Origin: Planctomycetota bacterium
GTDB lineage: Bacteria; Planctomycetota; Phycisphaerae; Phycisphaerales; UBA1924
Length of the DNA: 64,000 nucleotides
Direction of reading: 5' to 3'
Assembly: GCA_033763975.1 (NCBI GenBank)
Contig: JANRJM010000006.1
Location: 1-64,000, forward strand
Positions 8,466-34,497 of this stretch are shown one piece after another; the first letter of the stretch is position 1; the number at the start of each line of letters is the position of its first letter. The position numbers were made by a program, and so were the translations under genes. The notes beneath the pieces are model-generated. The model was not told the DNA's origin and searched no databases. It was given only the letters and a program-made list of their open reading frames with translations.

Positions 8466-8468
8466 GGA

Positions 8469-8491: not shown

Positions 8492-8553
8492 ACGCGAAGC
8501 GGGAACGCGGAGTGGGTAACCAGAAACAGCGGGCGAGAAGCGGCGAGGTGGGC

Positions 8554-8898: not shown

Positions 8899-8901
8899 GC
8901 C

Positions 8902-8924
8902 CTTCGCGGCCTTCGCGTTGAAAC
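8902..8924 (-). repeat. Right terminal inverted repeat of the GxxExxY cassette
   Basis: Inverted copy of 8469-8491 with one mismatch. It starts 3 bp after the GxxExxY stop codon and ends 9 bp before the DUF58 ATG. Confidence 0.85.
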
Positions 8925-8933
8925 AGGTTGTGC

Positions 8934-10276: not shown

Positions 10277-10319
10277 GCACCGTTCGCACTTCGCACGCCA
10301 GCGGGCATGAATCGGCCCC

Positions 10320-10343
10320 TGTTTCGCTGTCTCGCTTGCTCGC
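10320..10343 (-). repeat. Right octamer arm of the IVS-protein cassette
   Basis: Three 8-nt units on the plus strand, TGTTTCGC, TGTCTCGC, TTGCTCGC, are the inverse of the left-arm units. A fourth, more divergent unit TCGGTCCC follows to 10351. Confidence 0.8.
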
Positions 10344-10367
10344 TCGGTCCCTCTGCGGAGGCCGCCC

Positions 10368-12674
10368 GTGACGTGGCTCACCCCGATGTACGGCCTCATC
10401 GCCGCGTCGATCGCGGTGCCGACGCTCATCATTCTGTACTTCCTGAAGCTCCGCCGGCGCGACGTCGAGATCTCGACGACGCTGCTGTGGAAGAAGGCGA
10501 TCCAGGACCTGCAGGCCAACGCGCCGTTCCAGCGCCTCCGGCGGAACATCCTGCTCTTCCTCCAACTGCTCATCCTGGGCGCGATGCTGGTCGCGCTCGC
10601 CCAGCCGCAGCTCACCAGCCAGGTGATGACCGGGCGGCGGCACGTGATCCTGATCGACCGATCGGCGTCGATGAGCGCGCAGGACGAGGAGCTGGCGGGC
10701 GGGAAGAAGGCGAGCCGCCTCGACGTGGCGAAGGAGCAGGCGCTCGCGCTCGTCGAATCGCTGCGCGAGGGCGGGCTGCTGGCGAAGGACCGCGCGGACC
10801 AGGCGATGGTCATCGCGTTCGACAGCCAGGCGGAGATCCGCCAGCAACTGACGGCCGACAAGGCCGCGCTGCGGCGCGCGATCGAGGAGATCACGCCCAG
10901 CGAGGCCCCCACCGCGATCGAGGAGGCCATCCGCCTGGCGAAGGCGCAGCAGCGCCGGCGCGTGGTCGAGGGGCAGGAGATCGCGGGGCTGACGAGCGAC
11001 GAGCCGTTCACGATCCACGTGTACTCGGACGGGCGGATCCCCGACGCCTCGCGGACCGCGCCGGGGCCGGAGGATCACGTCGAGTTTCATCGCGTGGGCA
11101 CGCCGGACGCCGCCAACGTGGCGATCGTGGGCATGCGCGCGGAACGCTCGTTCGACAACCCGTCGAGGCTGAGCGTGTTCGTGTCGCTCATCAACACGCA
11201 GACGCTCCCGCGCACGGTGGACGTCGAACTGCTCATCGACGACGCGGGCTCGGGCATCAAGACAACGACCATCGCGGGCGCGAGCACCGAGGGCGTGTCG
11301 CTCTCGGCGCCCGAGGCGGCCCGGGCGGGGGCACGCGAGCGCGAGGCCGCGAACGCCGCGGGCCTGGCCCAGCCCGTCGCCGAGCGCACCGGGCGGGCCT
11401 CGCCCGGGGTCGGGGGCGTGGTGTTCAGCGTCGACCGGTCCGCGGGGGCGGTGGTGCAGGTGCGACTGCGCGATCCGGCGACGGGCGCGGCGTTGGAGGC
11501 CGATTCGCTCGAGATGGACAATCGCGGGTGGCTGATCGTGCCGCCCGCGAAGCGCCTGGCGGTGGCGGTGGTCTCGGCGCGGGGCAATCTCTTCCTGACC
11601 TCGGCGCTGCAGGGCCTGCCCTTGTCGCGCCTGGCGGAGTTCGGCCCCGAGGAGTTCGAGGAGCGGGCGGCCGACGGTTCTCTGGGCGAGTTCGACGTGG
11701 TGATCCTGGACGGGTACCTGCCGGAGGGCGCGAAGGCGGCGCCCCAGGCCGCCGCGCCGGCAGCGCCCGCACCCGAGGGCGATGCGCCCGCCGCACCGGC
11801 CGAGGCGTCCCCCGGGCCCGAGGCGGCCCCGCCCGCGCCGATCGACGCCGCGGTGCCCGTGGATGTGCTCCCGCCGGGGCGGTACCTGATCTTCGGCTCG
11901 GTGCCGGGGCGCCTGGGCGCGACGCCCTCGGGCATCCGCGACCTGGGCACGGGCGGCAGTGGCTCGATCATCGACTGGCGGCGTGACCATCCCCTGTTGC
12001 GCGCGGTGAACCTCGACGGGCTCGACATCGCACGCACGCGCAAGGTGTCGCTCGAGCAGGGAAGCCCGGCGACGGCGCTCGCGTTCTCCGAGGCCGGGCC
12101 GATCATCCTCGACGCCTCGACGGGCGAGGTCCGCAGCGTCGTCGTGCCGTTCGACGTGGCGGAGAGCGACTGGCCCTTCAACGTGAGCTTCGTGGTGTTC
12201 ATGGCGTCGGCGGTGAACTACCTGGCCGACGACACCGGCGCGGGCGCGACGGGTCGCACCGTGCAGCCCGGCTCGGTCTTCTCCGACCGCCTGCCGCCCG
12301 GCTCGACCGGCGCGCGGGTGCAATCGCCGGACGAACAATCCCAAGTCCTTCAGGCGGCCGGCGACGGACGCATCATCTACGGGCCTGTCTCGCGCACCGG
12401 CGTGTACGAGCTGTCCTGGAGCGGCCCGGCGGGCCCCACCGACCTGGCGGGCGATGGAGAACGTCCCACGCGCTACTTCGCGGCCAACCTGTTCGACCCC
12501 ACCGAGTCCGACATCGGCGCCACCGACGTGCTCGACCTCGCGAGCGACCGGGTCGCGGCGCGCGACTCGGGCAGCGCCGGCGCCACGCGACGCCTCTGGC
12601 CGCTCTTGCTGCTGGGCGCCCTGCTCATCGTCCTGGTCGAGTGGTTCGTGTACAACCGCAAGGTGCACGTGTGA
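10368..12674 (+). CDS. BatA-type VWA membrane protein
   Basis: A 768-residue inner-membrane protein. It opens with the BatA N-terminal domain: a membrane helix (GLIAASIAVPTLIILYFLKL), the LRRRDVEISTTLLW strand and a second helix (ILLFLQLLILGAMLVALAQP). A VWA domain follows with an intact metal site DRSAS (D97, S99, S101). A long beta-rich region, an Ala/Pro-rich linker near residues 460-500 and a C-terminal helix (LLLLGALLIVLVEWFVYN) complete it. The start is GTG at 10368 with GCGGAGG at 10356-10362. It overlaps the next gene by 4 bp. BatA proteins work with MoxR and DUF58 partners in the membrane; a second, divergent copy lies at 59024-61285. Confidence 0.85.
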   Translation: MTWLTPMYGLIAASIAVPTLIILYFLKLRRRDVEISTTLLWKKAIQDLQANAPFQRLRRNILLFLQLLILGAMLVALAQPQLTSQVMTGRRHVILIDRSASMSAQDEELAGGKKASRLDVAKEQALALVESLREGGLLAKDRADQAMVIAFDSQAEIRQQLTADKAALRRAIEEITPSEAPTAIEEAIRLAKAQQRRRVVEGQEIAGLTSDEPFTIHVYSDGRIPDASRTAPGPEDHVEFHRVGTPDAANVAIVGMRAERSFDNPSRLSVFVSLINTQTLPRTVDVELLIDDAGSGIKTTTIAGASTEGVSLSAPEAARAGAREREAANAAGLAQPVAERTGRASPGVGGVVFSVDRSAGAVVQVRLRDPATGAALEADSLEMDNRGWLIVPPAKRLAVAVVSARGNLFLTSALQGLPLSRLAEFGPEEFEERAADGSLGEFDVVILDGYLPEGAKAAPQAAAPAAPAPEGDAPAAPAEASPGPEAAPPAPIDAAVPVDVLPPGRYLIFGSVPGRLGATPSGIRDLGTGGSGSIIDWRRDHPLLRAVNLDGLDIARTRKVSLEQGSPATALAFSEAGPIILDASTGEVRSVVVPFDVAESDWPFNVSFVVFMASAVNYLADDTGAGATGRTVQPGSVFSDRLPPGSTGARVQSPDEQSQVLQAAGDGRIIYGPVSRTGVYELSWSGPAGPTDLAGDGERPTRYFAANLFDPTESDIGATDVLDLASDRVAARDSGSAGATRRLWPLLLLGALLIVLVEWFVYNRKVHV

Positions 12675-17934: not shown

Positions 17935-20703
17935 ATGCGGGCGCGGCGTGTCGAGTTCCTGGCCGGTGTTTGCTCGGTGATCGCCGGCGCCGCGAGCAGC
18001 GTCGCGCAAGAGGTCGCCCGCCCTTCGGCGTCGGGGCGCATCGTCCGCATCTTCGACTTCGAAGAACGCGAGACGAACCCCGGCGAGGTGCCCGACCTGT
18101 GGTACCGCGACCAGGACGACCCGAGCGGGGTCCGCCGCCCCGGGTTCCCGCCGTGGAACCGGGCGCGCGTCGCGTACGGGCGCGAGGGAACGCTCGCGTA
18201 CGCGGGGCAGGGCGCGGTCGAGCTGCCCACACGCGGGGGTTCGACGTCGCTGGTGCTCGCGCCGGGGGCGATCCCCGTCTTTCCCAACGCCGACTACCGC
18301 ATCGGCGCGTACGTCCGGACGCAGGGCCTGCGCCACGCACGCGCGGTGATCGAGGCCCGGTTCCTCGACGCCCAGCGACGGGCGATCCCCGGCGAGACCT
18401 ATCGCTCGGCCCCGGTGGTGGCGCCCGACCAATGGACACGCGTGGAGTTCGAGGCGGTCGGCCGCGCGAGCGGGGCGGCGTGGCTGCAGCTGGAACTGCT
18501 GCTGCTGCAGCCGGAATCGCTCGGGGCGGGCGCGACGACCGGCGAGCACCACGTGCGCAGCCAGGACTTCGACGGGAGCGCGTGGTTCGACGACCTGTCG
18601 GTGGTGCAGCTGCCGCGCGTGGAGATCACCACGGGCATTCCCGGCAACGTGTTCACGGGCCCGGACCGCCCGGAGATCGACCTGCTGGTGCGCGACCTCA
18701 CGGGCGAAGCGCTCACGATCATCGCCGAGGTGCTCGACGCGTCCGGGGCGGTGGTCGCGACCTCGACGCACCGGTCGGGCGCCGGTTTGTTCAAGTCGAC
18801 GTGGAGGCCCGAGCTGCCGCGCCTGGGGTGGTACCGCGCCCGGACGCGCGTGCGTTCGGGCGGGCGCGAGGTGGACGGCGCGACCGCCGACTTCGCGTGG
18901 ATCCCCGCCTCGGCGTCGGTCTCGGCGATGCCCGAGGAACTCGAGCGGTTCTCGATCGACCTGCTGTCGCTCCCCGAATCCGCGATGCGCGACGCGGAGG
19001 AACTCGTGCAGCGCGCGGGCGCGGGGCACGCGACGCTCGACGTCTGGACGCCCGACCTGACGCCCGAGCTCGCGCCGGAGCGGGCCCGCGCCCTGCTCGA
19101 GGGCGTGGGCGCGCTGCTCACGCACGGAAGGGGCGTCTCGTTGTCCGTCTCGGTCGTGCCCGACCAGCTCGCGACCTCGATGCGCCTGGGGGCGGACCGT
19201 CCGCTCGCGGTGCTCGCCTCGCCCCGCGAGCACTGGGAGGCGCACGCCGTCGACCTCTTCGAGACCCTCGGCCCGCGCGTCCCGCGCTGGCGCTTCGGGC
19301 TGCCCGCGAACGACGCGGACTTCTGGAACCCCTCGATCGCCGACGACCTCCAGCGCGCCCGCGCCTCGCTGGGCAAGTTCATCCCCTCGGCCCGCCTCTC
19401 GCTCTGCGGCGGGCTCGAACGCGACTGGTCGGACGTCTCCGGCTGCGACGGCGTCGTGCTCCGCGTTCCCCCGGACATGCCCCCGGAGGGCGTGCGCCTC
19501 GCGGTCGAAGGCTGGCGCGCCCGGGCCGACGCCCCGGAACTCACGCTTGTCTTTGAGCCCGTGCCCGGGCCGGTGCGCGACGGCGTCGCGAACCTCGCGC
19601 GCCAGGTCGTCGAGGCTTGGCTCGGCGCGGGCGAGACGCGCCCCCCCACCATGACGCTCGCCGATGCGTACTCGTGGGTCGGCGAGCGCCGCCCCGCGCT
19701 CGTTCCGCGCCCGACAATCCCCGCGTGGCGGACGCTGGCCGACCATCTCCGCGGGCGCCGGTACGCGGGGGATTTCCCCGCCGCCCCGGGCGTGCGCTGC
19801 ATCATGCTCGCGCCCTCGCCGGGGTCCGGGCGTCCCGGGGCGCTCGTCGCGTGGAGCGAGGTCGACACGGGCGCCGTGCTGGAGTCGTACCTCGGGCCCG
19901 GGCCCGTGCAGGTCACCGATCTCGACGGCAACACCCGCGGTGCCCCGACGCCCGAATCCGCCGGCGACCGACGCCCCTCGGGCGTGCGCATCGCCCTCAC
20001 CACCACCCCCGTCTTCATCGAGGGCGTGGACATGGGCTGGTGCCGGTTCCTCGCCTCGCTGCGCCTCGACCCCGCCACGCTCGACAGCGCCGGGCGCGAC
20101 CAGGACCTCGCGTTCGAGATCAGCGGCACGTGGAAGACCGGAGCCGCGGGTTCGATCACGATCTTGGAGCCCGGCGGGCACGAGCGGGGCGAGCGCGACC
20201 GATCCTGGCGCATTTCGCCCCGCCAACTCCGCTTTCACGTCGGCCCCGGCGAGGTCGCCCGCGTGCCCTTCAGCGTCGGCTTCAGCCCCGTGGAGGAATC
20301 CGGCACGCGCGAGATGGTGCTGGAGGTCGAGGTGCAGGGCGAGAAGGCCTACGGCCCGGTCGAAGTCCGTCGCACGTTCGAGATCGGGTCGCGCGGGCTG
20401 CGCCTGGAACTCGCGCCCACCATCGTCGGGGCTGACCTCATCGTCGACGCCATCGTGTCGAACGCCGGAGAGCAGGCGGCCTCGCTGCGCCTGACCGCCT
20501 TTGCGCCCAACGCACCGCGCATCAAGGCGGTGATCCCGGACCTTCCGCGTGGCAACCAGGCGACACGCCGGTTCCGGTTCGACGGGCTGGCGGAGCGGGC
20601 CCGCGGGCAGCGGGTCATGGTCGTGCTCGAAGACCCCGAGTCCGGCGCGCGCCTCGTGCGCTCTGTGCAGGCCCCGGATCCTGCCCGTCCCGGGCGAGAA
20701 TGA
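17935..20703 (+). CDS. Large secreted protein with CBM-like N-terminal region, unknown function
   Basis: A 922-residue protein with a signal peptide (FLAGVCSVIAGAASSVAQ). Residues about 90-220 look like a jelly-roll carbohydrate-binding fold of the CBM_4_9 kind (VVVAPDQWTRVEFEAVGRAS ... GSAWFDDLSVVQLP). Beta-sandwich sequence follows, then an alpha/beta part near residues 320-560 that could be a barrel (LLEGVGALLTHGRGVSLSVSVVP), then immunoglobulin-like beta domains at the C-terminus. I see no catalytic motif I can name. It follows the ABC exporter genes after 56 bp, and its last 89 bp overlap the convergent methyltransferase gene. It may be a secreted polysaccharide-interacting protein, but that is inference. 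Confidence 0.6.
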   Translation: MRARRVEFLAGVCSVIAGAASSVAQEVARPSASGRIVRIFDFEERETNPGEVPDLWYRDQDDPSGVRRPGFPPWNRARVAYGREGTLAYAGQGAVELPTRGGSTSLVLAPGAIPVFPNADYRIGAYVRTQGLRHARAVIEARFLDAQRRAIPGETYRSAPVVAPDQWTRVEFEAVGRASGAAWLQLELLLLQPESLGAGATTGEHHVRSQDFDGSAWFDDLSVVQLPRVEITTGIPGNVFTGPDRPEIDLLVRDLTGEALTIIAEVLDASGAVVATSTHRSGAGLFKSTWRPELPRLGWYRARTRVRSGGREVDGATADFAWIPASASVSAMPEELERFSIDLLSLPESAMRDAEELVQRAGAGHATLDVWTPDLTPELAPERARALLEGVGALLTHGRGVSLSVSVVPDQLATSMRLGADRPLAVLASPREHWEAHAVDLFETLGPRVPRWRFGLPANDADFWNPSIADDLQRARASLGKFIPSARLSLCGGLERDWSDVSGCDGVVLRVPPDMPPEGVRLAVEGWRARADAPELTLVFEPVPGPVRDGVANLARQVVEAWLGAGETRPPTMTLADAYSWVGERRPALVPRPTIPAWRTLADHLRGRRYAGDFPAAPGVRCIMLAPSPGSGRPGALVAWSEVDTGAVLESYLGPGPVQVTDLDGNTRGAPTPESAGDRRPSGVRIALTTTPVFIEGVDMGWCRFLASLRLDPATLDSAGRDQDLAFEISGTWKTGAAGSITILEPGGHERGERDRSWRISPRQLRFHVGPGEVARVPFSVGFSPVEESGTREMVLEVEVQGEKAYGPVEVRRTFEIGSRGLRLELAPTIVGADLIVDAIVSNAGEQAASLRLTAFAPNAPRIKAVIPDLPRGNQATRRFRFDGLAERARGQRVMVVLEDPESGARLVRSVQAPDPARPGRE

Positions 20704-21514
20704 AGAGGTAGTACCCGGGCTCGCGGGGCGTCGCCGGCACGCCTTCGCCGTCGGTGACGCCGACGACGCGCAGCCCGCCCCGCGACACGACGTCCCGCCA
20801 CTGCGCGAGGTTGTACCCGCGCAGGGCGTACGTCGAATCGATGTGCCGCTCGCGGACGCGCTTCCCCACCCCAGTCCGCACGGTGAGATGGCTGATCACG
20901 CGCTCGTTGCGGGCCGATTCTCCGCGTGCGCCCGCGGGCGGGATGTACTGCACGACCTGCGAGACGCGGACCCCGTCGCGCGAGCCCTTCCAGACGTCCT
21001 CGGTGATGCTCTCCAGCCCGTACGCGCACAGGCTGATGCCCACCACGTACACGCCCCCGGGGCGCAGCACGCCCCCGACACTGCGCAGGTGCTCGACCAT
21101 CGCGCGGTCGCTCGTCAGGTGGCGGATGGTGTTGATCAGGTTGAACGCCATCGTCACAGGGGGCAGACGCCGCCCCGACGCGAAGTCCTCCATGCGGGCG
21201 GCGAAGATGCGCACGCCCCCGTCGCCCTCCCCGGTCTGCGACTGGCAGACGCCCGCGTCGCGGGCCGTGCGGCGGGCGAACGCGACCATCTTCGGCTCGC
21301 TGTCGAAGCCGATCCCGCGCACCTTGAGGCGTGCCGCCGCACGCAGGTACCGGCCCGTGCCGCAGCCGGGCTCCAGCCACACGTCGGGCCCCTCGTGGCG
21401 CGGCACGTGCGCACGGCGCAGGCGGCGCAGCACGCGCACGTCCGACATCGTGCCGGGCGCGTGCAGAATGTCGTACAGTCGCGGGATGGAATAGAAGTCC
21501 TCGAACGTGCCCAT
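20615..21514 (-). CDS. Class I SAM-dependent methyltransferase
   Basis: A 299-residue cytosolic methyltransferase. The glycine-rich SAM motif I is VWLEPGCGTGRYL. An acidic motif II follows in IGFDSEPKMVAFAR, then MAFNLINTIRHL, and a post-motif III region LRPGGVYVVGISL. The acceptor cannot be told from the sequence. The start ATG at 21514 begins MGTFEDFYSIPRLYDIL, a usual opening for this group; the open frame upstream of it is not family-like. It is divergent from the DinB-like gene with only 13 bp between start codons, and TACGCT lies 8 nt upstream. The 3' end overlaps the convergent secreted-protein gene by 89 bp, so the last 20-25 residues may be non-conserved tail. Confidence 0.85.
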   Translation of the reverse strand: MGTFEDFYSIPRLYDILHAPGTMSDVRVLRRLRRAHVPRHEGPDVWLEPGCGTGRYLRAAARLKVRGIGFDSEPKMVAFARRTARDAGVCQSQTGEGDGGVRIFAARMEDFASGRRLPPVTMAFNLINTIRHLTSDRAMVEHLRSVGGVLRPGGVYVVGISLCAYGLESITEDVWKGSRDGVRVSQVVQYIPPAGARGESARNERVISHLTVRTGVGKRVRERHIDSTYALRGYNLAQWRDVVSRGGLRVVGVTDGEGVPATPREPGYYLFILARDGQDPGPAQSARGARRTRGLRARP

Positions 21515-21527
21515 CGCGGGGGAGCGT

Positions 21528-22043
21528 ATGAACCGATCCGAAGAACTCGCCGGCGCCATCGAGATGTCGCGGGCGCTGCTCGTCCGATTCCTTCCGGGCT
21601 TCACCGACGAAACCCACACCGCGCAGTTCCCCGGCCTGCCGAACCACCTGGCCTGGAACCTCGGGCACCTCGCGCACACCTGCCACCGCTGCGCCGCGAT
21701 GCTCGACGGGCTGGAGGCCTTCCCCGCAGCGGACTTCGTGCCCGGCGACGCGGGAAACCCCGAGCGCTACGCCATCGAGTCCATCGCGTTCGGGTCCGTG
21801 CCCGTGGCCGACCCCGCCCGCTACCCGCGATTGGCCCGGTGCAGCGCGATCTTCGACGCGGCCATCGCCCGCTACGCCGCCGCGGTGCGCGCGCTGGAAG
21901 ATCCCGACCGCGTGGTGTCGTGGGGCGGCACGCCGCTCACCGCGGCGCAGCTCGTGATCCGCATGGTCTTCCACAACGGCACGCACTGCGGCGAGATCCT
22001 GGACCTCCGCCGGGCGCTTCGCCTCGGGCGCATCCTGGGCTAG
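21528..22043 (+). CDS. DinB superfamily protein
   Basis: A 171-residue four-helix protein of the DinB/YfiT group. The metal triad is visible: H47 in NLGHLAH, and H149 and H153 in FHNGTHCGEI, the latter in the typical HxxxH spacing. These proteins are metal-dependent thiol transferases or unassigned; the substrate here is unknown. The ATG at 21528 is chosen because GGGGGAG precedes it by about 4 nt; a GTG at 21507 would add seven residues without family likeness. It is divergent from the methyltransferase gene and shares the 13-bp start region, so both may use overlapping control sites. Confidence 0.85.
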   Translation: MNRSEELAGAIEMSRALLVRFLPGFTDETHTAQFPGLPNHLAWNLGHLAHTCHRCAAMLDGLEAFPAADFVPGDAGNPERYAIESIAFGSVPVADPARYPRLARCSAIFDAAIARYAAAVRALEDPDRVVSWGGTPLTAAQLVIRMVFHNGTHCGEILDLRRALRLGRILG

Positions 22044-22084
22044 CCCGTGCCGGGGGCTCGGCGACGGGTCGTATGCGCTGGGCG

Positions 22085-24091
22085 CTACGCCCCGGGCAGA
22101 TGCTTGTCGATCCAGTCGTCCTGGCGCAGCACGCTGGCGCGGTTGCGTCGGTCGCGCGCCTCGCTGCGGCGCTGCGCGTGACGGAAGACCATCAGCGCGA
22201 CGCGCGTGTCGAGCAGTTCGTCCGCCGTCGCCCGCGCCCGCAGCAGGCGCGCCTCGAACGGCGCGTGCCGGGTGATGAGTTCGTCCTCCAGCGAGACAAA
22301 GACCTGCGACGAACCCGGGTCGCCCTGGCGCCCGGCGCGCCCGATGAACTGGCGGTCGATGCGCTGGGCCCCGTGCATCTCGGTGAGCAGCACGTGCAGC
22401 CCGCCGGCCTCGAGCGCCGCCCGGTCGGGCTTGATGTCCGTCCCGCGTCCGGCCATGTTCGTCGCGACGGTGATCGCCGCCCCGGACCCGCCGATGCCCG
22501 CCCGCCCGATGAACTCGGCCTCTTCCTTGTCGAAGTTCGCGTTCAGCACCTGGTGCGGGAGGCCCCGCGCCGTCAGCAGGCGCGACAGCAGTTCCGACGC
22601 CGCGATCGAGCGCGTCCCCACCAGCACCGGGCGTCCGCGCCGGTGCATGTCCTCGATCGACGCGCCGATGGCGGCCCACTTGTCGCGCACCGTCCGGAAC
22701 ACGCGCGTGGGCATCCGCGTCCGCACCACCGGGCGGTTCGGCGGGATCACCGTCACGGGGCGCGCATACACCGTCTCCATCTCGCTCGTCGCGTCGGCCG
22801 CCGTGCCCGTCATCCCGCACAGGAACGGGTACGTGCGGAAGAACCGCTGGAACGAGAGTCGCGCGAGCGTCTCGCGGTCGGCCGTCACGTCCAGCCCTTC
22901 CTTGGCCTCCACCGCCTGGTGCAGGCCGTGCTCCCACTGCCGGTCGGGGAGGAACCGCCCCGTGTACTCATCGACGATGAGCACCTTGCCGTCCACCACC
23001 TGGTAGTGCTGCCCGTGCAGGTAGCAGTGGCTCGCGACCAGCGCCTGGCGCACGAGCTCTTCGCCCCGGCGCGACGCCCGCCAGATCGCCTCGCCCCCGT
23101 GCGCGAGCAGGTCGTCGGTGAGCACGCGCAGCCGGTCGCGCCCGCGGCGCGTGAGCGTCGCGCGCCGGCGCACGTGCTCGACCTCGTAGTCGGCCTGCTC
23201 GTCGAGCTTGCCCGCCAGGCGCGTCGCCTCGCGGTACACCTTCGCCATGTCGTCCTCACGCCGCGAACGCGCGATGATCAGCGGGACGACGCCCTCGTCG
23301 ATCAGCACGGCGTCGGCCTCGTCGACCAGCGCCGCCCGCAGCCCGGGCACCAGCGGGTTCAGTCCTTCGCCCCCCGAGCCGACGAGCGAGGTCAGGCGCC
23401 GTGCGCTCCACGCCGTGCCCGTGGGGCCGAGCTTGATCTGATCGCGCAGCCAGTCGGCGACGATCTGCTTGGGCGTGCCGTAGACGATGCCCCGCGAGTA
23501 GACGCCCGCGCGCTCCGGGGGCGAGAGGTCCTGGGTGATGGCCCCGACCTCGAGCAGGCATCGTCGGTAGATGTGGCGGCGAGATTCCGCGTCGCGGGCC
23601 GCCAGGTAGTCATTCACCGTGAAGACGTGCAGGCGCTTGCGTCGCCAGGCGATGAGCGCCGCCGCGAGCGAGCCGGTGAGGGTCTTGCCCTCGCCGGTCA
23701 GCATCTCGATGATCCGCCCGTGGTAGAGGCCCAGCGCGCCCATGAGCTGCACGACGTACGCCTCTTCGCCCGTCGCGCGCCGGGCCACCTCGCGCACGCA
23801 CGCCAGCCCACGGCGCACGCACGCGTCGTCCTGACGCCCGCGCACGAACCGCTCGCGCACGTCGGCGATCACCGCGTCGAGCGCGCCCTCCGACATCCCC
23901 CGCATCTCCGGCGAGAGCGCGTCGGTCGCCTGCGCCTCGCGCAGCAGGCACGACGCACGCGACCGCGCGTGACGCACCAGCGTCCCCACGCGCGACGCGA
24001 GCAGATCGACCCCCTTGTGCACCGGCGGCCTCATCCGCCGGCTGCGGAACGAGTCGAACAGCACGCTGTACCTGGTCAGCACCTGCGTCAC
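22085..24091 (-). CDS. Short SecA-type ATPase (accessory SecA-like, truncated C-terminus)
   Basis: A 668-residue SecA-family motor. Nucleotide motifs are present: MLTGEGKT (residues 130-137), VDEADAVLID, TVATNMAGRGTDI and QFIGRAGRQGDPGSSQVFVSLEDEL. YGTPKQIVADWLRDQ and a preprotein cross-linking region (LVASHCYLHGQHYQVVDGKVLIVDEYTGR) are also present. The chain ends about 65 residues after SLEDEL, at a point matching the start of the long scaffold helix, so the two-helix finger, most of the helical wing and the zinc-binding tail of SecA (about 900 residues) are absent. GTG at 24091 has GGAG five nt upstream. It lies 10 bp after the M50/HlyD gene on the same strand, so it is probably the motor of a dedicated export module, not the housekeeping SecA. 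Confidence 0.88.
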   Translation of the reverse strand: MTQVLTRYSVLFDSFRSRRMRPPVHKGVDLLASRVGTLVRHARSRASCLLREAQATDALSPEMRGMSEGALDAVIADVRERFVRGRQDDACVRRGLACVREVARRATGEEAYVVQLMGALGLYHGRIIEMLTGEGKTLTGSLAAALIAWRRKRLHVFTVNDYLAARDAESRRHIYRRCLLEVGAITQDLSPPERAGVYSRGIVYGTPKQIVADWLRDQIKLGPTGTAWSARRLTSLVGSGGEGLNPLVPGLRAALVDEADAVLIDEGVVPLIIARSRREDDMAKVYREATRLAGKLDEQADYEVEHVRRRATLTRRGRDRLRVLTDDLLAHGGEAIWRASRRGEELVRQALVASHCYLHGQHYQVVDGKVLIVDEYTGRFLPDRQWEHGLHQAVEAKEGLDVTADRETLARLSFQRFFRTYPFLCGMTGTAADATSEMETVYARPVTVIPPNRPVVRTRMPTRVFRTVRDKWAAIGASIEDMHRRGRPVLVGTRSIAASELLSRLLTARGLPHQVLNANFDKEEAEFIGRAGIGGSGAAITVATNMAGRGTDIKPDRAALEAGGLHVLLTEMHGAQRIDRQFIGRAGRQGDPGSSQVFVSLEDELITRHAPFEARLLRARATADELLDTRVALMVFRHAQRRSEARDRRNRASVLRQDDWIDKHLPGA

Positions 24092-24101
24092 ACGCGCTCC
24101 G

Positions 24102-26270
24102 TTAGATCTTCGCACGCCCCTGCAGCGCCTGACGCAGACGCACCCACCACTGCGCCGCCAGCGGGCGGCTCTCCAGCGTGAACCGCAGCACCACCCGCTC
24201 GCCCGGCACGCCGATCGGCGCCGCCCGCTCCGCGCCGGCGTCGTCCACCGCACGGAAATACCCGCGGAAGACCGGCGAAGTCGCGACCCGCCCCGTCTGG
24301 TCGTCCGGGCTCGTCGCGATCACCCCGCCCCCCATGGCCGAGAGCGCCTCGTGCGGGAGCGAGCGCGTGCCCGCCTCGATGATCTTCTCGGTCCGCGCCG
24401 GCACGACATCGTCCACGCGCGAGACCGTCCGCACTTCCACCTTCAGGGGCCCCTCGCGGACCCACGACGCCTCGGTCTGCGAGAGCACCGCCGCCACGCG
24501 CACGTCGGCCAGGTCCACGACCTCGCACAACGCCGCCCCTTCGCGCACGTAGCTGCCCAGTAGCAGGCGGGGATCATCGCCCACGACGACGCCCGCGTGC
24601 GGCGCGCGCACGATCATCGCCTCCCGGCGCGCTTCCAGCCACTCGAGCTGCGCGCGGATCGCGCGGGCGTACTCCTCCGCCGCCTGGGCCGCGGCGATGC
24701 TCTCGGGCATCGCGGCCCGCCCGCGGCTCTCGACCTCGGCGAGCTGCGCCTTGGAGAGCCGGTAGTGCGCGTCCAGCGAGGCGTTCTCGAGCGTCACGAG
24801 GGGCTGGCCCTGCTCGACGCGATCGCCGCCGCGCACGTGCGCCTCGCGCACGAACCCGTCGACCCCGAAGAACACGCCCGAGGCGCTCGCGCTCTCCAGC
24901 ACGCCCGAGGCGCGGCGACGGTCCGGCGCGGGGATGACCCCCACCGCCGTCACCACCAGGGCGGCCAGCGCAACCGACGTCGCGATCGCGCGCGGGCGCG
25001 AGTCGGAGAGCATCGGGCTGGTCGCCAGCCAGTGGACGAAGCGCCCGGTGGGCAGGATGAACCACATCGCCGCCGTCCACGCCGCCAGGAACACCCCGAT
25101 GGCGAACAGCTTGGTCATCACGTACAGCGTGATCGAGACGAACAGGAAGATGCGGTACACGAACGCCGCGATGCCGTAGACAACGAGGATGGCGGCCTCG
25201 GAGAGGCTGCCCGTCGGGGGCTGGGCCTGCTCCAGCCGGTACACGTGGCGCTGGAACAGGAACTGGAGCATCTGGTTCGAACGCTGCATGAGGTTGGGCA
25301 CCTCGAGCAGGTCGCTGAGCATGTAGTACCCGTCGAACTTCATGAGCGGGTTGGCGTTGAAGAGCACGGTGCTGACGCCCGCGCTGAGCATGACGTTGTA
25401 CGCGAGCTGGTGGGGCAGGCTCTCGTCGGGGGTGCGCAGCCACACGAACGCGGCGATCGCCGCGACGAAGAGCTCAAAGAGCATGCCCCCCGCGCCGACG
25501 GCGATGCGCTTCCACTTGCTCGTGAAGCCCCACGCCGCCGAGGCGTCGACGTACGGCGCGGGCAGCAGCACGAGGAGCATCGCGCCGAACTCGGGCACCT
25601 GCCCGCCGTAGCGCTTGCAGATGAGCCCGTGCCCCAGCTCGTGGAAGAGCTTGAGCAGCACGAACACGACCGCCATCCAGCCCCAGTTCGCCGGCGCGAT
25701 GGCGCCGTCGATCCCGCTCGCCAGGCGCCCCCAGTGCGGGAGCAGCGCGACCACCGCCGCCACGACCAGCCCGAGCCACAGCAAGAAGCCCACGGGCGAG
25801 ATCGCCGGGCGCACGATCGGCTCGAGCCACGACAGGATGGTGTCGGGGTTGAACAGGCGCACCTTGAAGTACATCAGCCCGATGGCCTGCTGACGCACCT
25901 TCTTCGCCGTGCGGTCGCGCCCGCGCCGCAGCAGTTGCTCGGTCTCGGGCGTCACGTCGCCCGTGAGCAGGTTGCTCCCGTACAACTGCGAGAGGAGCTG
26001 GATCACCTCGTTCTGCGTCAGCGCGTCGTCCGCGTGCTTCTCGAGCGAGGTCTGCCACACCGCCTCGACGGTGCGCCGTCCGTCGAGCAGCCCAACGAAC
26101 TCGTGCGCCACGCTGTTCAGCCGGTAGAACTGGTTCGACGAGGGGTCGTGCACCACGTGCCACCGGCGCCCGCGGAAGTGCTGCCTCGTGATCTGCACGT
26201 GCGGCCTCAGGCGGGGCTTCATCGCCCGCACCCGGTGCCAGAACGGCGAAAATGTCGATCGCTCGCTCAT
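24102..26270 (-). CDS. PqqD-like / site-2-protease (M50) / HlyD fusion membrane protein
   Basis: A 722-residue multipass protein. Residues 20-105 resemble PqqD, the winged-helix fold used as a RiPP recognition element (HVVHDPSSNQFYRLNSVAHEFVGLLDGRRTVEAV). The core has the M50 zinc site HELGH (210-214) in a membrane segment and NPLMKFDG (about 307-314), the third-ligand motif with D313. Several further membrane helices follow. The C-terminal 230 residues are an HlyD-like periplasmic adaptor with a lipoyl half-motif (VTLENASLDAHYRL) and a coiled-coil pair. Start ATG at 26270. It lies between the GAF/HlyD gene and the short secA. Intramembrane cleavage of an exported peptide or anchoring of an export channel is possible; no precursor peptide gene is seen nearby. 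Confidence 0.82.
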   Translation of the reverse strand: MSERSTFSPFWHRVRAMKPRLRPHVQITRQHFRGRRWHVVHDPSSNQFYRLNSVAHEFVGLLDGRRTVEAVWQTSLEKHADDALTQNEVIQLLSQLYGSNLLTGDVTPETEQLLRRGRDRTAKKVRQQAIGLMYFKVRLFNPDTILSWLEPIVRPAISPVGFLLWLGLVVAAVVALLPHWGRLASGIDGAIAPANWGWMAVVFVLLKLFHELGHGLICKRYGGQVPEFGAMLLVLLPAPYVDASAAWGFTSKWKRIAVGAGGMLFELFVAAIAAFVWLRTPDESLPHQLAYNVMLSAGVSTVLFNANPLMKFDGYYMLSDLLEVPNLMQRSNQMLQFLFQRHVYRLEQAQPPTGSLSEAAILVVYGIAAFVYRIFLFVSITLYVMTKLFAIGVFLAAWTAAMWFILPTGRFVHWLATSPMLSDSRPRAIATSVALAALVVTAVGVIPAPDRRRASGVLESASASGVFFGVDGFVREAHVRGGDRVEQGQPLVTLENASLDAHYRLSKAQLAEVESRGRAAMPESIAAAQAAEEYARAIRAQLEWLEARREAMIVRAPHAGVVVGDDPRLLLGSYVREGAALCEVVDLADVRVAAVLSQTEASWVREGPLKVEVRTVSRVDDVVPARTEKIIEAGTRSLPHEALSAMGGGVIATSPDDQTGRVATSPVFRGYFRAVDDAGAERAAPIGVPGERVVLRFTLESRPLAAQWWVRLRQALQGRAKI

Positions 26271-26308
26271 GTCGTCTCACCGCGAACCGGGCCGCTACCC
26301 CTGCCCGC

Positions 26309-26476
26309 TCTTTCCCTGCCGCGCTGTCTCGCTCTTCCCCTGCCTCGCTGCCTCGCCGTCTCGCTCTTCCCCTGCCTCGCTGCCTCGCTCTTTCGCTCTT
26401 TCCCTGCCTCGCTGTCTCGCTCTTTCGCTCTTTACCTGTCTCGCTGTCTCGCTGTCTCGCTTCTTCCCTGCCTCGC
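26309..26476 (-). repeat. 168-bp array of 21 octamers, GCGAGRCA family
   Basis: The stretch between the two HlyD-type genes is built of 21 consecutive 8-nt units in strict register. On the plus strand the commonest are TGCCTCGC and TGTCTCGC (eleven copies in all), separated by TCTTTCGC, TCTTCCCC, TCTTTCCC and similar variants. On the minus (gene) strand they read GCGAGGCA and GCGAGACA. The same units form the inverted arms of the IVS-protein cassette at 9858-10343. No direct repeat/spacer pattern of CRISPR type is present. Because both flanking genes are read on the minus strand, the array lies in the leader of the M50 gene's downstream neighbour order and would be transcribed in the operon. 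It could be a relic of a lost cassette, a slippage-expanded repeat or a binding site. Confidence 0.85.
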
Positions 26477-26481
26477 TCTCT

Positions 26482-28527
26482 TCACCACCACAGCCACACG
26501 CGCAGCGTGTCGATCACCCGGCGCGACGCGATCCACGCCAGCGAGTGTTCCTCGGTGTCGAACCGCGCCTGGCCTTCCATGCCCGGCAGCGCCCACGCCG
26601 GCAGCGCGCCCTGCTGCACCTTGCCCCGCACCTCGAAGACGTTCTCGCCTTCCTTCGCCCGCGCCAGCGGCACGACCGCCTCCACCGTGAAGTCCATCGC
26701 CAGCGAGGGGTCCGACTTCGGGCTCACCTGCCCCGTGCCCCCCACCCCGATCATCGCGATGTCGCGATCGTCGACCTCCGCCACCACCACCATGTCGCGC
26801 GTGTCCGCCACCTCCAGCAGCCCATCGCCCACCCGTGCCGACGCCCCGATCTTCCGACGCAGGTCCCCCGCGATGATCGTCCCGTCGATCGGCGAGATCA
26901 CGCGGCTGCGCTCTATCTGGTACGTCATCAGATCCCGGCGCGCCCGCGCCTGCTCCGCCTTCGCCCGCGCCTGCGATGCCTCGCTCAGCTCCGAGCGCTT
27001 CAGCGCCTCCGCCTCCTGCTTCTCGAACTGCACCACCTGCGCCTCGGCCTCCAGACGCGACAGGATCATCTCCCGCGTGTCCAGCTCCACCAGCACCTCG
27101 CCCGCACGCACGTCGCGCCCCGGCTCCATCCCCTCCGCCACCCGCGCGATCGTCCCGTCGAACGGCATCGACAGCGTCCGACGCTCGCGCGGCTGCAACT
27201 GCATCGGCGCGCCCACCCGGTACGTCGTCGTGTAGAACGTCATGAACAGCACCGCGGCCATCACCAGCACGCCCGCGACCTTCCACACCGTGTGCGTCGG
27301 GCCCACCGCCCACCCCGCCGCACGCTTCGCCGACGCCCACGCCCGGGCCGCCAGGATGCGGTCGTCGCTCCGGCGCACCGCCAGCACCGGCGCCACCAGG
27401 TCGAGCGTCGCCTGCAGCAGTTCCACCGTCGCCGTGTCGATCTTGCCCTCGCCCCCCGCCTCGACGAGCAGCACGCCGACGATCCGCTCGCCCTCGGCGT
27501 CCACCACGCGCAGGGGCATGCTCGCGACCTTCAGGCGCGCGTCCTCCGCCGCAAGTTCCCGGTGCGCGTGCGTCACCGCCTGCGACAGCACCGCGTCTCC
27601 CGAGGCCTCGGGCGCCGGGAACAGCACCGGCTGCTCCTGGTCCAGGCACTCGTCCATCGCGTGCTCGATCTTGCGGACCATCGCCATGCGACGGTCCAGG
27701 TTCTCGGTGTCCGAGAGCGCGACGCACCGCGTCTCGCGCCGGGGCGAACTCCCCTCGCGCGCCGACCCCGCCTCGTGCACCCACCCCACCGCCACGCGGT
27801 CGACCGACAACTGGCGGCTCAGGTCGTTCACCAACTGCAGGCAGCACCCCTTGAAGTCGTTGGTCGAGTTGATCGACGCGATCAGCCGGGCCGCCAGGTC
27901 CAGCGACGCGCCCGACGCCCGCGCACGGCGGAGCGCCTGGCTCGCCGCGTGCAGGAACGAATACCCGGTCAGCACCTCCACCATCGCCAGCGTGGTCTGC
28001 AGCGCCTGGCGCGAGCGCGAGTCGATCAGCAGCGTGATGACGCCCAGCAGGGGCAGGCCCGAGGCCTCGGCGGGCAGGCCCGCCATCACGGGCGCCGCGA
28101 TCACGCTCCCGCGCTGCCCGGACGCGTCGTACATCAGCGTGTCGCCCTCGAGGGCGAACACCGCCGGCTGGCGCGTCGTGCCCGCGCTGCGCGCCGCCGC
28201 CTTCACCTCCGCCGCGGACTCCAACTGGCGCTCGTCGAACGCGCCGGCGTCGAACATCGCGTCCAGCGAGCGCGACACCCGCCCCTGCGCGTCGACCGCG
28301 TCGCCGGCGAGGGGCCAGACGAGCGTCGGGCGGGGTTCGAACTCGGGCGCGTTCTCGCGTTGCCCGCCCACGGTGAACAGCACGCCCTGGCGCGCCCCCG
28401 ACACCTGCCCCAGCACGCCCAGCAGGCGCAGCAGGAACACGCGGTCGTCGGCCGCGGGAGACGTCAGCTCCGACACCACCCGCTGCCACCCGGGCGCCTT
28501 GAGATTCGACAGGTCCGTCAGTGCCAT
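26482..28527 (-). CDS. GAF-domain / HlyD fusion membrane adaptor
   Basis: A 681-residue protein. The first 370 residues are cytosolic and look like one or two GAF-type sensor domains (LTGYSFLHAASQALRRA ... LIASINSTNDFKGCCLQLVNDLSRQLSVDRVAVGWV ... VDAEGERIVGVLLVEAGG). A single membrane helix follows (VWKVAGVLVMAAVLFMTFY, about residue 410). The periplasmic part is a HlyD adaptor: PFDGTIARVAEGMEPGRDVRAGEVLVELDTREM, a coiled coil of about 70 residues and SPIDGTIIAGDL. ATG at 28527 has a GCGAGG ribosome-binding site. It is placed between a free HlyD protein and the M50/HlyD protein. Fusion of a small-molecule sensor to a secretion adaptor suggests that export is gated by a cytosolic signal, but the ligand is unknown. 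Confidence 0.82.
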   Translation of the reverse strand: MALTDLSNLKAPGWQRVVSELTSPAADDRVFLLRLLGVLGQVSGARQGVLFTVGGQRENAPEFEPRPTLVWPLAGDAVDAQGRVSRSLDAMFDAGAFDERQLESAAEVKAAARSAGTTRQPAVFALEGDTLMYDASGQRGSVIAAPVMAGLPAEASGLPLLGVITLLIDSRSRQALQTTLAMVEVLTGYSFLHAASQALRRARASGASLDLAARLIASINSTNDFKGCCLQLVNDLSRQLSVDRVAVGWVHEAGSAREGSSPRRETRCVALSDTENLDRRMAMVRKIEHAMDECLDQEQPVLFPAPEASGDAVLSQAVTHAHRELAAEDARLKVASMPLRVVDAEGERIVGVLLVEAGGEGKIDTATVELLQATLDLVAPVLAVRRSDDRILAARAWASAKRAAGWAVGPTHTVWKVAGVLVMAAVLFMTFYTTTYRVGAPMQLQPRERRTLSMPFDGTIARVAEGMEPGRDVRAGEVLVELDTREMILSRLEAEAQVVQFEKQEAEALKRSELSEASQARAKAEQARARRDLMTYQIERSRVISPIDGTIIAGDLRRKIGASARVGDGLLEVADTRDMVVVAEVDDRDIAMIGVGGTGQVSPKSDPSLAMDFTVEAVVPLARAKEGENVFEVRGKVQQGALPAWALPGMEGQARFDTEEHSLAWIASRRVIDTLRVWLWW

Positions 28528-28579
28528 GCCAATCACCTCGCCGCCGCGCGGGCCCGCCCGCGCCGCCCCACAGGGTTGC

Positions 28580-29560
28580 TCACCGGCTCGCCGCCGCGGC
28601 CTGCACCCGCAGCGATCCGAGCAACGCCGCGTCGGGTTCCTCGAACCGCACCCACGCCGGCCCGCCCGACAGCAAGCGCCCCGCGCCCTTCGGGTTCGCG
28701 ATCTCCACACGCACCCGCCTCGTGCGGCTGCCCAGGTCCGACGTCGGCGCGACCTCCGTCACCTTCCCCGTCCGCAACTGCGCGGACCCGGCCACCTCGA
28801 CCAGCACCCACGCCGGGTCGCCCACCTGCACCCGCCACGTCCGCGCATCGCCGATGTCGGCCCCCACGTCCATCACCAGCGAGTCGATGCGCACCAGGCG
28901 CACCAGCGGGTCGGTCTCGCGCACGCTCTGTCCGGCGTCGGCCAGCACGCGGTCCACGATCCCGTCGAACGGCGCGGTGATCCGGAAGCGGTCCACGCGC
29001 GCCTGGAACCGATCGACCTGCAGCACCTCCTGCGTCTGCTGCAACTGGGCGTTCAGGTAGTCCAGCCGGGCCGTCTCGAACGTCAGGCGCGCCCGCTCCA
29101 CCTCTTGCGGGCCCGATCCGCCCTTGTCCCGAATCTCCAGCAGGTGCTTGTACTCCACCTCCGCGAGGTCCATCGCGGCCTTGGCCCGCTGGACGGGAAT
29201 GTCCTTCTCCGCCCGCACTTTCTGCAGGTTGAGGATCGCGAGTTCCTCGGTGTCGTCGCCCCGAAGCAGCAACTGCCCCGCGACGACCTCCTGCCCCCCC
29301 TGCACGAGCACTTCCTTCACGGTCGTCGGCAACTGCAGGCTCATGGTCACGTCCAGCCGCGGGCGGACGTGGCAGAGCACGCCGAACTTCTCCGCGGCCT
29401 GCGAATCCACCCGCGTGGGGCCTTCCAGGGGCTGCGGGGCCACCGGCGCAGTGGATCCCCCCGGCGCCGGTCCGGAAGTCTGTGCTGGAACGGGTGATAC
29501 GCCGAGAGTCACGAGCGAGGCGGCGACAAGCGCCCCCACGCCCCAAGCGGGCTTCGACAT
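28580..29560 (-). CDS. HlyD family periplasmic adaptor
   Basis: A 326-residue exported adaptor with a signal peptide (GVGALVAASLVTLGVSPVPAQ). A lipoyl half-motif follows (LQLPTTVKEVLVQGGQEVVAGQLLLRGDD), a helical hairpin with coiled-coil character (residues about 105-185) and the second half (DRFRITAPFDGIVDRVLADAGQSVRETDPLVRLVRID), then a beta-barrel. The C-terminus lacks a membrane anchor. ATG at 29560 is used because it places the signal peptide at the N-terminus; an ATG nine codons upstream is possible. TATAGT lies six nt before the ATG, so this gene probably starts the operon that runs through the GAF/HlyD, M50/HlyD and short SecA genes. Confidence 0.85.
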   Translation of the reverse strand: MSKPAWGVGALVAASLVTLGVSPVPAQTSGPAPGGSTAPVAPQPLEGPTRVDSQAAEKFGVLCHVRPRLDVTMSLQLPTTVKEVLVQGGQEVVAGQLLLRGDDTEELAILNLQKVRAEKDIPVQRAKAAMDLAEVEYKHLLEIRDKGGSGPQEVERARLTFETARLDYLNAQLQQTQEVLQVDRFQARVDRFRITAPFDGIVDRVLADAGQSVRETDPLVRLVRIDSLVMDVGADIGDARTWRVQVGDPAWVLVEVAGSAQLRTGKVTEVAPTSDLGSRTRRVRVEIANPKGAGRLLSGGPAWVRFEEPDAALLGSLRVQAAAASR

Positions 29561-32502: not shown

Positions 32503-34497
32503 CTACACGCCGCGCAGCGCGGGCGGCTCGGTCTGCGCCCGCAGCAACTCCGCGTACCGCCCGCCCCGGGCGAGCAGGTCCTCGTGCGGGCCCAGCTCGG
32601 TGATCGCCCCCTTCTCGACGACCGCGATCCGCGAGGCGTACCGGATCGTGCTCAGCCGGTGCGCGATCACGAAGCACGTCCGGCCCTTCATGAGCGTCGC
32701 GAGCGACCGCTGGATCAGCACCTCGCTCTCCGTGTCGAGGTTGCTCGTCGCTTCGTCCAGGATCAGCAGCAGCGGATCGGCGAGCAGCGCCCGCGCGATC
32801 GCCAGACGCTGCTTCTGCCCGCCCGACAGGCGCACCCCACGCTCTCCGATCACCGTCGCGTAGCCCTTCTCGAGGTCGGAGATGAACGCGTGCGCGTTGG
32901 CGGCCTTGGCCGCGTCGACGATCATGTCCCCCGTCGCGTCCCGGCGTCCGTACGCGATGTTCTCGGCGACCGTGCCGTCGAAGAGCAGCACCTCCTGCTC
33001 GACGATGCCCAGCAGCGCGCGGTACGAGCCGACGTCGAGCCGCCGCAGGTCGACCCCGTCGAAGAGCACCTCCCCGCCCGTCGGGTCGTAGAAGCGCGCG
33101 ATGAGGTTGCACAGCGTGGTCTTGCCCGAGCCGGACGGGCCGACGAACGCGATGACCTCGCCGGGCTTCACGTCCAGCGAGACGCCCCGCACGACCGGCT
33201 CGGGGGGCGTCTCCTGTGCCGCGGGTTCGCCCTCGGCGCGTTTCCTGGGCGCGGGCGCGCGGGGGTAGGTGAACCAGACGTTGCGCAGCTCGACGCGTCC
33301 CTCGGCGGTGGCGCGCGAGACCACGACGTCGCCGGGCATGGACGCGAACTCCTCTTCCTCGCCCAGGAGGTCGAGCACGCGGTCGAGTGCCGCCAGGTTG
33401 CTCTGGATGGTGGACGCGGTGGACGTCAGGGTCTCGAGCGGGCCCAGGAGCATGAGGAGGTAGGTCGAGAACATCATGACGTCGCCGATGGTGAGCTCGC
33501 CGCGGACCACCTGCGACCCGCCGTAGACCAGCACGAACGCCGAGGCGAGCGGGATGAGCACGGCCCAGGCGATCTCGAGCACGCGCGACCACCACCACGT
33601 CACGATCTCGATGCGCGTCATGTAGTGCTGCGCGCCGGTGAATCGCACGGCCTCGGCACGCTCGCGTGCGAACCCGCGCACCACCCGGATGCCCCCGAAC
33701 ACCTCGGTCGTCGAGGCGTCGATCCCCTGGCGCACCTGCTTGGCGTCGCGGTGCAGCGGGCGGATCCGCCCGATCCATGTCCGGTGCGTCACCCACACCG
33801 CCGGGATCAGCATCGCCCCGCCCGCCAGCATCCGCCAATCCACCCAGGCGAGGATCCCCAGCGTGCCCACGAGCTGCACCACCGCCCGCCACGGGTTGTA
33901 GATCATCGAGAACAGCAGCTCGCCCGCCAGCCCCGCGTCCTCGCGCAGCAGGCTCGCCACCCCGCCGGTCTTGTAGTGCTGCAGGCGGTGCAGCGGCAGG
34001 CGCACGGCGTGCAGGAAAGTCGTCCGGCGCAGGTGCGCCTGCACGCGCTTCGTCACCCGCGTGATCTGCCACCGCCCCACCGTGCCGATCGAGACCCCCA
34101 GCAGCGCGATGAGCACCAGGACCATCCCGAGCCGCCACAGCAGCCCCTCGCGCGAATCCGGCAGCGCGAACACCTCCCGCGCCCACGCGGGGATGCCCGC
34201 CGGGCCCGGCTCGTCGGTCAGGATGTAGTCGATCGCGACCTTCGTCGACGCCGGCGCGACCAGGCCCATCGCCGTCACGAGCGTGAGCGTGCCCAGCGCC
34301 AGCGCCACGTACCGGCGGTGCCCGCGCGTCAGCTCCCAGAACCGCCCGAAGAGCTCGACGAACGAGCGCGACCGCTTCGACCTGTCCGCGCGCGGACCTT
34401 TGTCCGAGGTGGGGCGCTTCGCCCACGCCGCGTCCGCCTTGCGGGTGCGCTGGTACTCCGAGAACCGTTCGCGGCTGGACGATCGGCGTGGGATCAT
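32503..34497 (-). CDS. ABC exporter, fused membrane and ATPase domains
   Basis: A 664-residue half-transporter of the MsbA/exporter type that would work as a homodimer in the inner membrane. The N-terminal 70 residues are basic and cytosolic. The membrane domain starts near VALALGTLTLVTAMGLV and has six helices. The ATPase domain has Walker A GPSGSGKTT, Q-loop in GIVEQEVLLFDGTVAENI, signature LSGGQKQR, Walker B LLLILDEATSNLD and switch His in IAHRLSTI. A lipid or peptide substrate is usual for this class. ATG at 34497 lacks a ribosome-binding site; TATAGA lies eight nt upstream. It stands alone, 44 bp downstream of the carboxypeptidase stop. Confidence 0.92.
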   Translation of the reverse strand: MIPRRSSSRERFSEYQRTRKADAAWAKRPTSDKGPRADRSKRSRSFVELFGRFWELTRGHRRYVALALGTLTLVTAMGLVAPASTKVAIDYILTDEPGPAGIPAWAREVFALPDSREGLLWRLGMVLVLIALLGVSIGTVGRWQITRVTKRVQAHLRRTTFLHAVRLPLHRLQHYKTGGVASLLREDAGLAGELLFSMIYNPWRAVVQLVGTLGILAWVDWRMLAGGAMLIPAVWVTHRTWIGRIRPLHRDAKQVRQGIDASTTEVFGGIRVVRGFARERAEAVRFTGAQHYMTRIEIVTWWWSRVLEIAWAVLIPLASAFVLVYGGSQVVRGELTIGDVMMFSTYLLMLLGPLETLTSTASTIQSNLAALDRVLDLLGEEEEFASMPGDVVVSRATAEGRVELRNVWFTYPRAPAPRKRAEGEPAAQETPPEPVVRGVSLDVKPGEVIAFVGPSGSGKTTLCNLIARFYDPTGGEVLFDGVDLRRLDVGSYRALLGIVEQEVLLFDGTVAENIAYGRRDATGDMIVDAAKAANAHAFISDLEKGYATVIGERGVRLSGGQKQRLAIARALLADPLLLILDEATSNLDTESEVLIQRSLATLMKGRTCFVIAHRLSTIRYASRIAVVEKGAITELGPHEDLLARGGRYAELLRAQTEPPALRGV

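Follow-up and report, generated by a model that had tools for sequence, protein, structure and literature searches.

What does a shortened SecA motor move when it is encoded beside a membrane protease and periplasmic adaptors? The question is raised by an operon in a 64,000-nucleotide stretch of contig JANRJM010000006.1 (here called the window), from a Planctomycetota bacterium of the order Phycisphaerales (assembly GCA_033763975.1). Four minus-strand genes follow one another there, encoding in order a HlyD adaptor, a protein that joins GAF and HlyD parts, a PqqD-M50-HlyD fusion, and a short SecA, each with a clear GC-frame coding signal. Judging from sequence comparisons, the operon probably encodes a type-I-like secretion machine driven by SecA (its motor together with the parts in the inner membrane and periplasm), the clients of which would be long extracellular proteins with an N-terminal LEPR leader. 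Export was also the function favored by a preliminary description of this stretch, and our reading supports it.

LEPR-XLL proteins as candidate clients

The client signal tested was the LEPR-XLL model of NCBIfam (NF012209, 24 positions, E ≤ 1e-3), a choice suggested by giant planctomycete proteins. Among 81 close relatives (the genome of the window and 80 others), LEPR matches are present in 29 of the 59 genomes with the M50 protein and in none of the 22 without it. Across Planctomycetota (216 genomes), they occur in 12 of 49 genomes with the M50 profile and in one of 167 without (G230), and in 219 genomes from the family of the Sedimentitalea genome G319 (Rhodobacteraceae) the counts are 21 of 31 and 2 of 188 (G357 and G448). 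The M50 line in this family was preset at E ≤ 1e-30; a stricter line for strong matches (E ≤ 1e-120), drawn after the scores had been seen, gives 20 of 22 versus 3 of 197. Of another 43 genomes with the module, the majority from outside Planctomycetota, 34 have LEPR matches; these genomes came from 44 of the 80 named loci introduced below, picked to omit most Phycisphaerae (L111 was left out). No search at this threshold gave a LEPR match in the 14 control genomes. One-sided Fisher tests yield P values of 7e-6 for the relatives, 6e-8 for the phylum, and 1e-19 for the G319 family (4e-23 at the stricter line), which are optimistic, since the genomes are related and the sets partly overlap (eight genomes are common to the relatives and phylum sets, and G304 and G319 belong both to the 43 further genomes and to the G319 family). 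The Pfam family PF07595, tried as a leader probe, was too weak, with matches in 5 of 216 genomes, three of these five with the module.

The LEPR genes are also physically linked to the module. In the G319 family, 24 of 28 LEPR matches share a contig with the M50 gene and 20 of the 28 are within 5 kb of it, 19 of those on the same strand; the gap between the two is mostly the size of a GAF/HlyD gene. Five of five genomes in this family with two strong modules carry two LEPR genes, and the LEPR frames reach 17,824 amino acids (aa), with a median of 9605. In the distant case of G507 the LEPR gene is 153 kb from the M50 gene, which has the same coordinates as on plasmid CP081100.1. A 13-kb stretch without listed genes extends there from the module to the end of the record, and the LEPR gene likely adjoins the module across the record start. 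Among 35 tabled named loci, 18 have a LEPR gene within the flanking sequence retrieved with the module, and an exact match over 1 kb confirmed the contig in each. Coordinates agreed in 23, of which L100, L132, and L156 were dropped as chance agreement with other open reading frames (ORFs), and L124 and L128 among the 20 kept failed the contig check.

Complete arrangements illustrate this linkage. On plasmid pMSC49a of Methylosinus sp. C49, a single strand encodes an 8847-aa protein (leader IIFDTLEPRVLLNAD), DUF3467, GAF/HlyD, PqqD/M50, SecA, HlyD, and TolC; a plasmid of Pseudosulfitobacter sp. DSM 107133 encodes a 12,918-aa LEPR-XLL protein, GAF/HlyD, M50, SapC, SecA, and HlyD. Marinobacterium mangrovicola DSM 27697 is another carrier of the module. 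In the Phycisphaerae G061, G068, and G073, a leader-bearing gene is located inside or beside the cluster. The respective proteins score 16.9, 27.7, and 11.6 bits against NF012209, one of them passing the cut-off, and G061 passes in the genome search (22.1 bits).

From 50 LEPR loci, 46 N-termini were obtained by regular expression, in which a basic stretch is followed by [FLIV]ExLEPR[LVI]LLS[AG]D. Since the expression used to find the N-termini demands LExR, its L, E, and R do not vary; free of this constraint, the flanking positions hold E two residues before LExR in 45 of 46, S in 42, and D in 36. The maximal 12-residue hydropathy does not exceed 2.07 in any of them and is at most 1.6 in 38, and in our judgement the leaders lack a strong hydrophobic core, unlike Sec signals. 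A looser expression, LE.R.[LMVAI][LM], has nine matches in 725 ORFs of the 80 loci versus a mean of 4.1 in shuffled and 2 in reversed sequences, a count that is weak taken alone; eight of the nine continue LSA, LSG, or LNA.

At the other end of the giant ORFs (e.g., L154:3-8663, L117:3-8102, and L125:1-7773), an HExxHxxGxxH pattern is present within the last 700 residues in 5 of 14, versus 1 of 541 other ORFs. A C-terminal [ILVM]xW[SDEGN] pattern near the end (7 of 14 versus 19 of 541) was set aside; both patterns were chosen after looking at the sequences.

The operon and its relatives

Gene limits in the window (Table 1) were refined using start codons and comparison with relatives. The layout, coding signal, and Pfam matches agree with the preliminary description in placing four genes on one strand, with the short SecA after the PqqD/M50/HlyD, GAF/HlyD, and HlyD genes, and in finding neither a type I ABC exporter nor SecY2 among the operon genes. 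No SecY gene is present in the operon or among its scanned neighbors.

Table 1. Features of the operon in the window and candidate clients encoded elsewhere in the same genome
Feature	Coordinates	Strand	Evidence and remarks
HlyD	28580..29560	-	HlyD_D23 7.6e-15, HlyD_3 7e-12; periplasmic adaptor (membrane fusion protein)
GAF/HlyD	26482..28527	-	HlyD_3 2.1e-10; GAF-like cytoplasmic region, one membrane segment, HlyD adaptor part
PqqD-M50-HlyD fusion, 722 aa	24102..26270	-	Pfam; predicted structure model, pLDDT (predicted local distance difference test) 90
PqqD-like domain, residues 38-102, proposed leader reader	25965..26159	-	PF05402 7.3e-8
M50 membrane core, residues 191-385	25116..25700	-	HExxH 210-214 and D313; RseP-like fold
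MacA-like HlyD part, residues 448-709	24144..24929	-	MacA 9qgy_G match
Short SecA, 668 aa	22085..24091	-	Both motor domains and preprotein cross-linking domain; wing/scaffold, finger, and C-tail absent
Subtilase with P-domain and PPC, 1829 aa			Candidate client outside the window; leader variant ALEALEARQLLSADLP
Protein of 579 aa			Candidate client outside the window; leader variant FEALESRLALAADF
Protein of 478 aa			Candidate client outside the window; leader variant RFEALERRVVLDG

The short SecA begins with GTG, 10 bp past the M50 stop codon. Pfam identifies SecA_DEAD (5.8e-78), P-loop_SecA (5e-50), and SecA_PP_bind (9e-23) and does not find SecA_SW, and the alignment to the Bacillus subtilis SecA chain covers residues 23-603 and ends there, consistent with the earlier claim that the protein stops short of the finger and tail. 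Going by the anatomy of SecA, the missing part comprises the wing and the C-tail, along with the two-helix finger and most of the scaffold. The genome encodes a full-length SecA of 1348 aa with SecA_SW on another contig (C1), so the short protein is not the housekeeping copy, a possibility raised in the preliminary description. Neither is it a frameshifted full SecA: the tblastn match of the full-length protein to positions 18001-24500 of the window ends at about 22106, indicating that no displaced remainder is present downstream. Sixty neighboring SecA ORFs across the named loci measure 641-754 aa, so the shortening is old; two further ones, which overlap the M50 gene, have ORF lengths of 814 and 851 aa. 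Against SecA2 equivalogs, the short SecA scores 364-438 bits and does not reach the cut-offs of 725-1100.

RefSeq labels the short SecA as a "prepilin peptidase" in the annotated operons of the Methylosinus and Pseudosulfitobacter plasmids (loci L223:23071-25095 and L225:22204-24120), and Pfam identifies SecA_DEAD in both proteins (8.5e-99 and 1e-103). On plasmid CP081100.1 the protein is named SecA. The system can therefore be hidden in annotation by the RefSeq label.

The predicted model of the PqqD-M50-HlyD protein combines known folds. Its MacA-like part (449-701 in the model) matches MacA 9qgy_G (Z 16.3, root-mean-square deviation 2.3, 219 residues), and residues 191-385 are RseP-like (Z 10.0-10.3). 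A portion of GdmN (7vzz) is matched by residues 13-105 with a Z of 10, while Pfam places PqqD at 38-102. The PqqD match passes its Pfam cut-off (33.1 versus 23.4 bits), HlyD_3 is found at 8e-11, and Peptidase_M50 (1e-5) falls just below its cut-off (25.4 versus 27.2 bits). H210, E211, H214, and D313, the HExxH motif and distal aspartate, are invariant across 48 sequences. The protein also matches a daptide-family peptide-maturation protease (1.1e-53, 182.7 bits, under the cut-off of 300). In the GAF/HlyD protein of the window GAF_2 is weak (0.0012, 19.4 bits, below the 28.6 cut-off), and clear GAF domains are present in its homologues at L223 and L225. The free HlyD protein likely carries a signal peptide, as judged by eye.

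The co-conservation that the preliminary description proposed to check is borne out among the 81 close relatives. The M50 protein is present in 59 and the short SecA (rows down to E 3e-89) in 58, all within the 59, and neither occurs in the other 22. At 61 of 77 M50 places, the next gene downstream on that strand encodes the short SecA; this count leaves out 18 weaker rows, which were fragments or matched HlyD alone (E 1.5e-19 or worse). Seven of the 16 remaining places are contig ends or separated pairs and nine belong to a distant paralogue group (G006:C9:173749-175806, G061:C18:509357-511459, and seven similar places) without a short SecA directly downstream; in G006 a LEPR gene is located about 5 kb from such a paralogue.

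More widely, 80 named loci were kept out of at least 553 relatives. Going by record titles, these span Planctomycetota, Verrucomicrobia, Lentisphaerae, Kiritimatiellae, Nitrospirota, alpha-, beta-, gamma-, and deltaproteobacteria, Omnitrophota, Fibrobacteres, Rokubacteria, and Magnetococcales. Where there is room on the contig, 60 of 69 loci have SecA after M50 and 64 of 68 have GAF/HlyD before M50. Ten neighboring ORFs were scanned: two between M50 and SecA are SapC, and all eight of the other candidates are OEP (TolC family). The earlier statement that the set has no TolC is thus true of the operon in the window, but not of the module elsewhere, where OEP genes adjoin it.

Several other genes accompany the module. 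SapC genes are located between M50 and SecA in alphaproteobacterial loci (L117:12259-13038, L154:12948-13799, and also L223). A small DUF3467 gene, the family being named from the copies in relatives, is present in 16 of the 80 loci (e.g., L049:5889-6311 and L105:7688-8053), often with GAF/HlyD on one side and the giant gene or HlyD on the other. DUF3467 was considered as a SecB-like chaperone and rejected: the predicted structure, which consists of three strands and one helix (pLDDT 77), has no PDB match at E ≤ 0.001, and the best VIA-align Z is 5.2, with SecB not among the matches listed, which decides nothing. In the window an ABC exporter gene (ABC_membrane and ABC_tran) is located at 32503-34497 on the minus strand, 2.9 kb upstream of the module, with DegT and hydrolase genes in between, and the region is flanked on each side by a distinct group of genes of the VWA, BatA, and DUF58 types (4181-12674 and 59024-62307).

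Proposed mechanism and competing explanations

In the machine proposed here, the PqqD-like domain would capture the leader, as PqqD-type domains bind peptide leaders, and the fingerless SecA would feed the unfolded chain. The M50 membrane part may gate the path, cut the leader near LLSA/D, or both, while the HlyD proteins could form a MacA-like periplasmic tube to a TolC-type channel, the gene for which would need to be elsewhere in this genome. The GAF region may sense a signal; in the preliminary description, the GAF domains may gate the process and the M50/HlyD protein may form the membrane part. We infer the order of events, the channel, and the role of the GAF region alike. The chances appear even that the module constitutes a separate secretion system, present in Planctomycetota and Verrucomicrobiota, in several classes of proteobacteria, and in other phyla. 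In such a system the fingerless SecA would take the place of the ABC or SecY partner, and proteins as long as about 18,000 residues would be driven by it through M50, HlyD, and TolC in a single step, with a PqqD-type domain reading the LExRxLLS leader.

The intact M50 site and the resemblance to a daptide-family protease would also suit a module that only matures or anchors LEPR proteins, with M50 cutting the leader after the proteins have crossed by Sec or an ABC exporter. A published Vibrio giant with LEPR-XLL and C-terminal RTX parts could, from the passages describing it, suit an ABC exporter as well. However, a SecA motor, three adaptors, and a neighboring OEP would be superfluous for processing, ABC-exporter-like ORFs are rare at the module (3 of the 80 named loci), and the weak hydrophobicity of the leaders does not favor Sec, which makes this explanation unlikely. 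A separate alternative, in which PqqD-M50-HlyD matures a small modified peptide that the operon then exports, would draw on the daptide-protease similarity and on the PqqD domain. It is highly improbable, as the recurrent linkage is to giant proteins, and DUF3467 is the sole recurrent small-gene family among the 21 loci clustered (ORFs of at least 90 aa).

An accessory Sec pathway of the SecA2 type, in which the short SecA would serve a subset of proteins through ordinary SecYEG and the M50/HlyD proteins would act later, is quite unlikely. The finger, needed for the work of SecA in SecY, belongs to the part that the short SecA lacks; its scores are far below every SecA2 cut-off, and the leaders do not resemble Sec signals. 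Consistent with such a pathway, on the other hand, are the retention of both motor domains and the cross-linking domain and, in a 2015 paper (PMC4452313), the placement of this clade beside actinobacterial SecA2.

Several observations weigh against a secretion machine for LEPR proteins, including the optimistic P values given above. Many module genomes have no LEPR match (30 of 59 relatives, 37 of 49 in the phylum set, 10 of 31 in the G319 family, and 9 of the 43 further genomes), and the three exceptions named above have a LEPR match and no M50 match. There is no TolC gene in the operon of the window, the rest of the genome not having been searched for one. No protein of this genome passes the 17-bit cut-off of NF012209: three leader-like proteins score 13.8-14.9 bits (as whole proteins 11.7 bits or no match), and two matches that are not leaders score above them, at 15.8 and 15.2 bits. 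Since the three score no better than non-leaders, they are candidates picked by eye; two are encoded more than 100 kb away on the contig of the module and one on another contig.

These three, the subtilase and two smaller proteins, are the best candidate clients in this genome, and their leader variants are in the right place and frame (Table 1). At the DNA level the pattern ExLExR is not enriched in the genome, with 42 matches versus 52 in the reversed control; of the former, 30 were subsequently inspected by eye. The conserved substrate gene sought by the preliminary description is probably the LEPR-XLL family, as linkage and co-occurrence suggest, but this genome has no above-cut-off copy.

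Relation to known systems

Kamneva, Poudel, and Ward (2015; PMC4452313) describe secondary SecA_DEAD proteins that have lost SecA_SW and have M50, HlyD, and GAF neighbors. They propose SecA as the ATPase, M50 as the pore, and GAF as the sensor of a system related to type I secretion, and report it, with a separate canonical SecA, from Planctomycetes, Verrucomicrobia, Proteobacteria, and others. In Methylobacterium extorquens AM1, one of the organisms to which they assign the module, they found low expression during exponential growth for every gene of it except the GAF gene. The module is therefore known and the hypothesis of the preliminary description, which had called it unassigned and perhaps the most novel system of the window, is essentially theirs. 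A term search of the text of that paper finds neither PqqD nor Studholme, and "substrate" just in general remarks on type I secretion.

What is new here is the client assignment with its leader and the mechanism proposed, the module itself being of a known kind. A motif of R. baltica proteins, RRLxxExLExRxLLA (Pfam PF07595), was reportedly described by Studholme in 2004. A later paper (PMC8567305) cites it as a putative export signal, and the passages available name no exporter. Searches of open-access papers showed none joining the module to the LEPR leader, and the LEPR-XLL papers, in the parts available, are not on export. The assignment of the LEPR client and leader, drawn from co-occurrence and linkage, is new as far as searched. 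If it is correct, there is now a client for a gene set published in 2015 without one, and an exporter for a widespread leader that has counted as a putative export signal in Planctomycetes since 2004. It would account for the exit of some of the longest bacterial proteins from the cell, SecA would work without its finger and perhaps without SecY, and the short tag would be testable at once.

Compared with the secondary SecA_DEAD loci of 2015, which have the same four components, a SecA with wing and scaffold loss, and a separate canonical SecA, the operon in the window likewise has a SecA without a full SecA_SW, an M50/HlyD neighbor (sub-cut-off for M50, with RseP- and MacA-like folds), a GAF/HlyD neighbor, and a canonical SecA. 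The client, leader, PqqD, and DUF3467 are not given there; the present analysis adds a putative LEPR client, a spread over more phyla, and the active site of M50. LEPR-XLL (NF012209) and the R. baltica motif are alike in forming an N-terminal LExR-x-LL leader on long surface proteins, and neither is tied to an exporter in the literature found. With type I secretion systems the module has in common HlyD-type adaptors, an OEP beside it elsewhere, and the proposed one-step export, but a SecA-type motor and an M50 membrane protein take the place of the ABC exporter, and the leader is N-terminal. Like accessory Sec systems with SecA2, which handle special clients that are in some cases very large, it would employ a second SecA; here, however, the second SecA is fingerless, has no SecY2, and is partnered by HlyD and M50 proteins.

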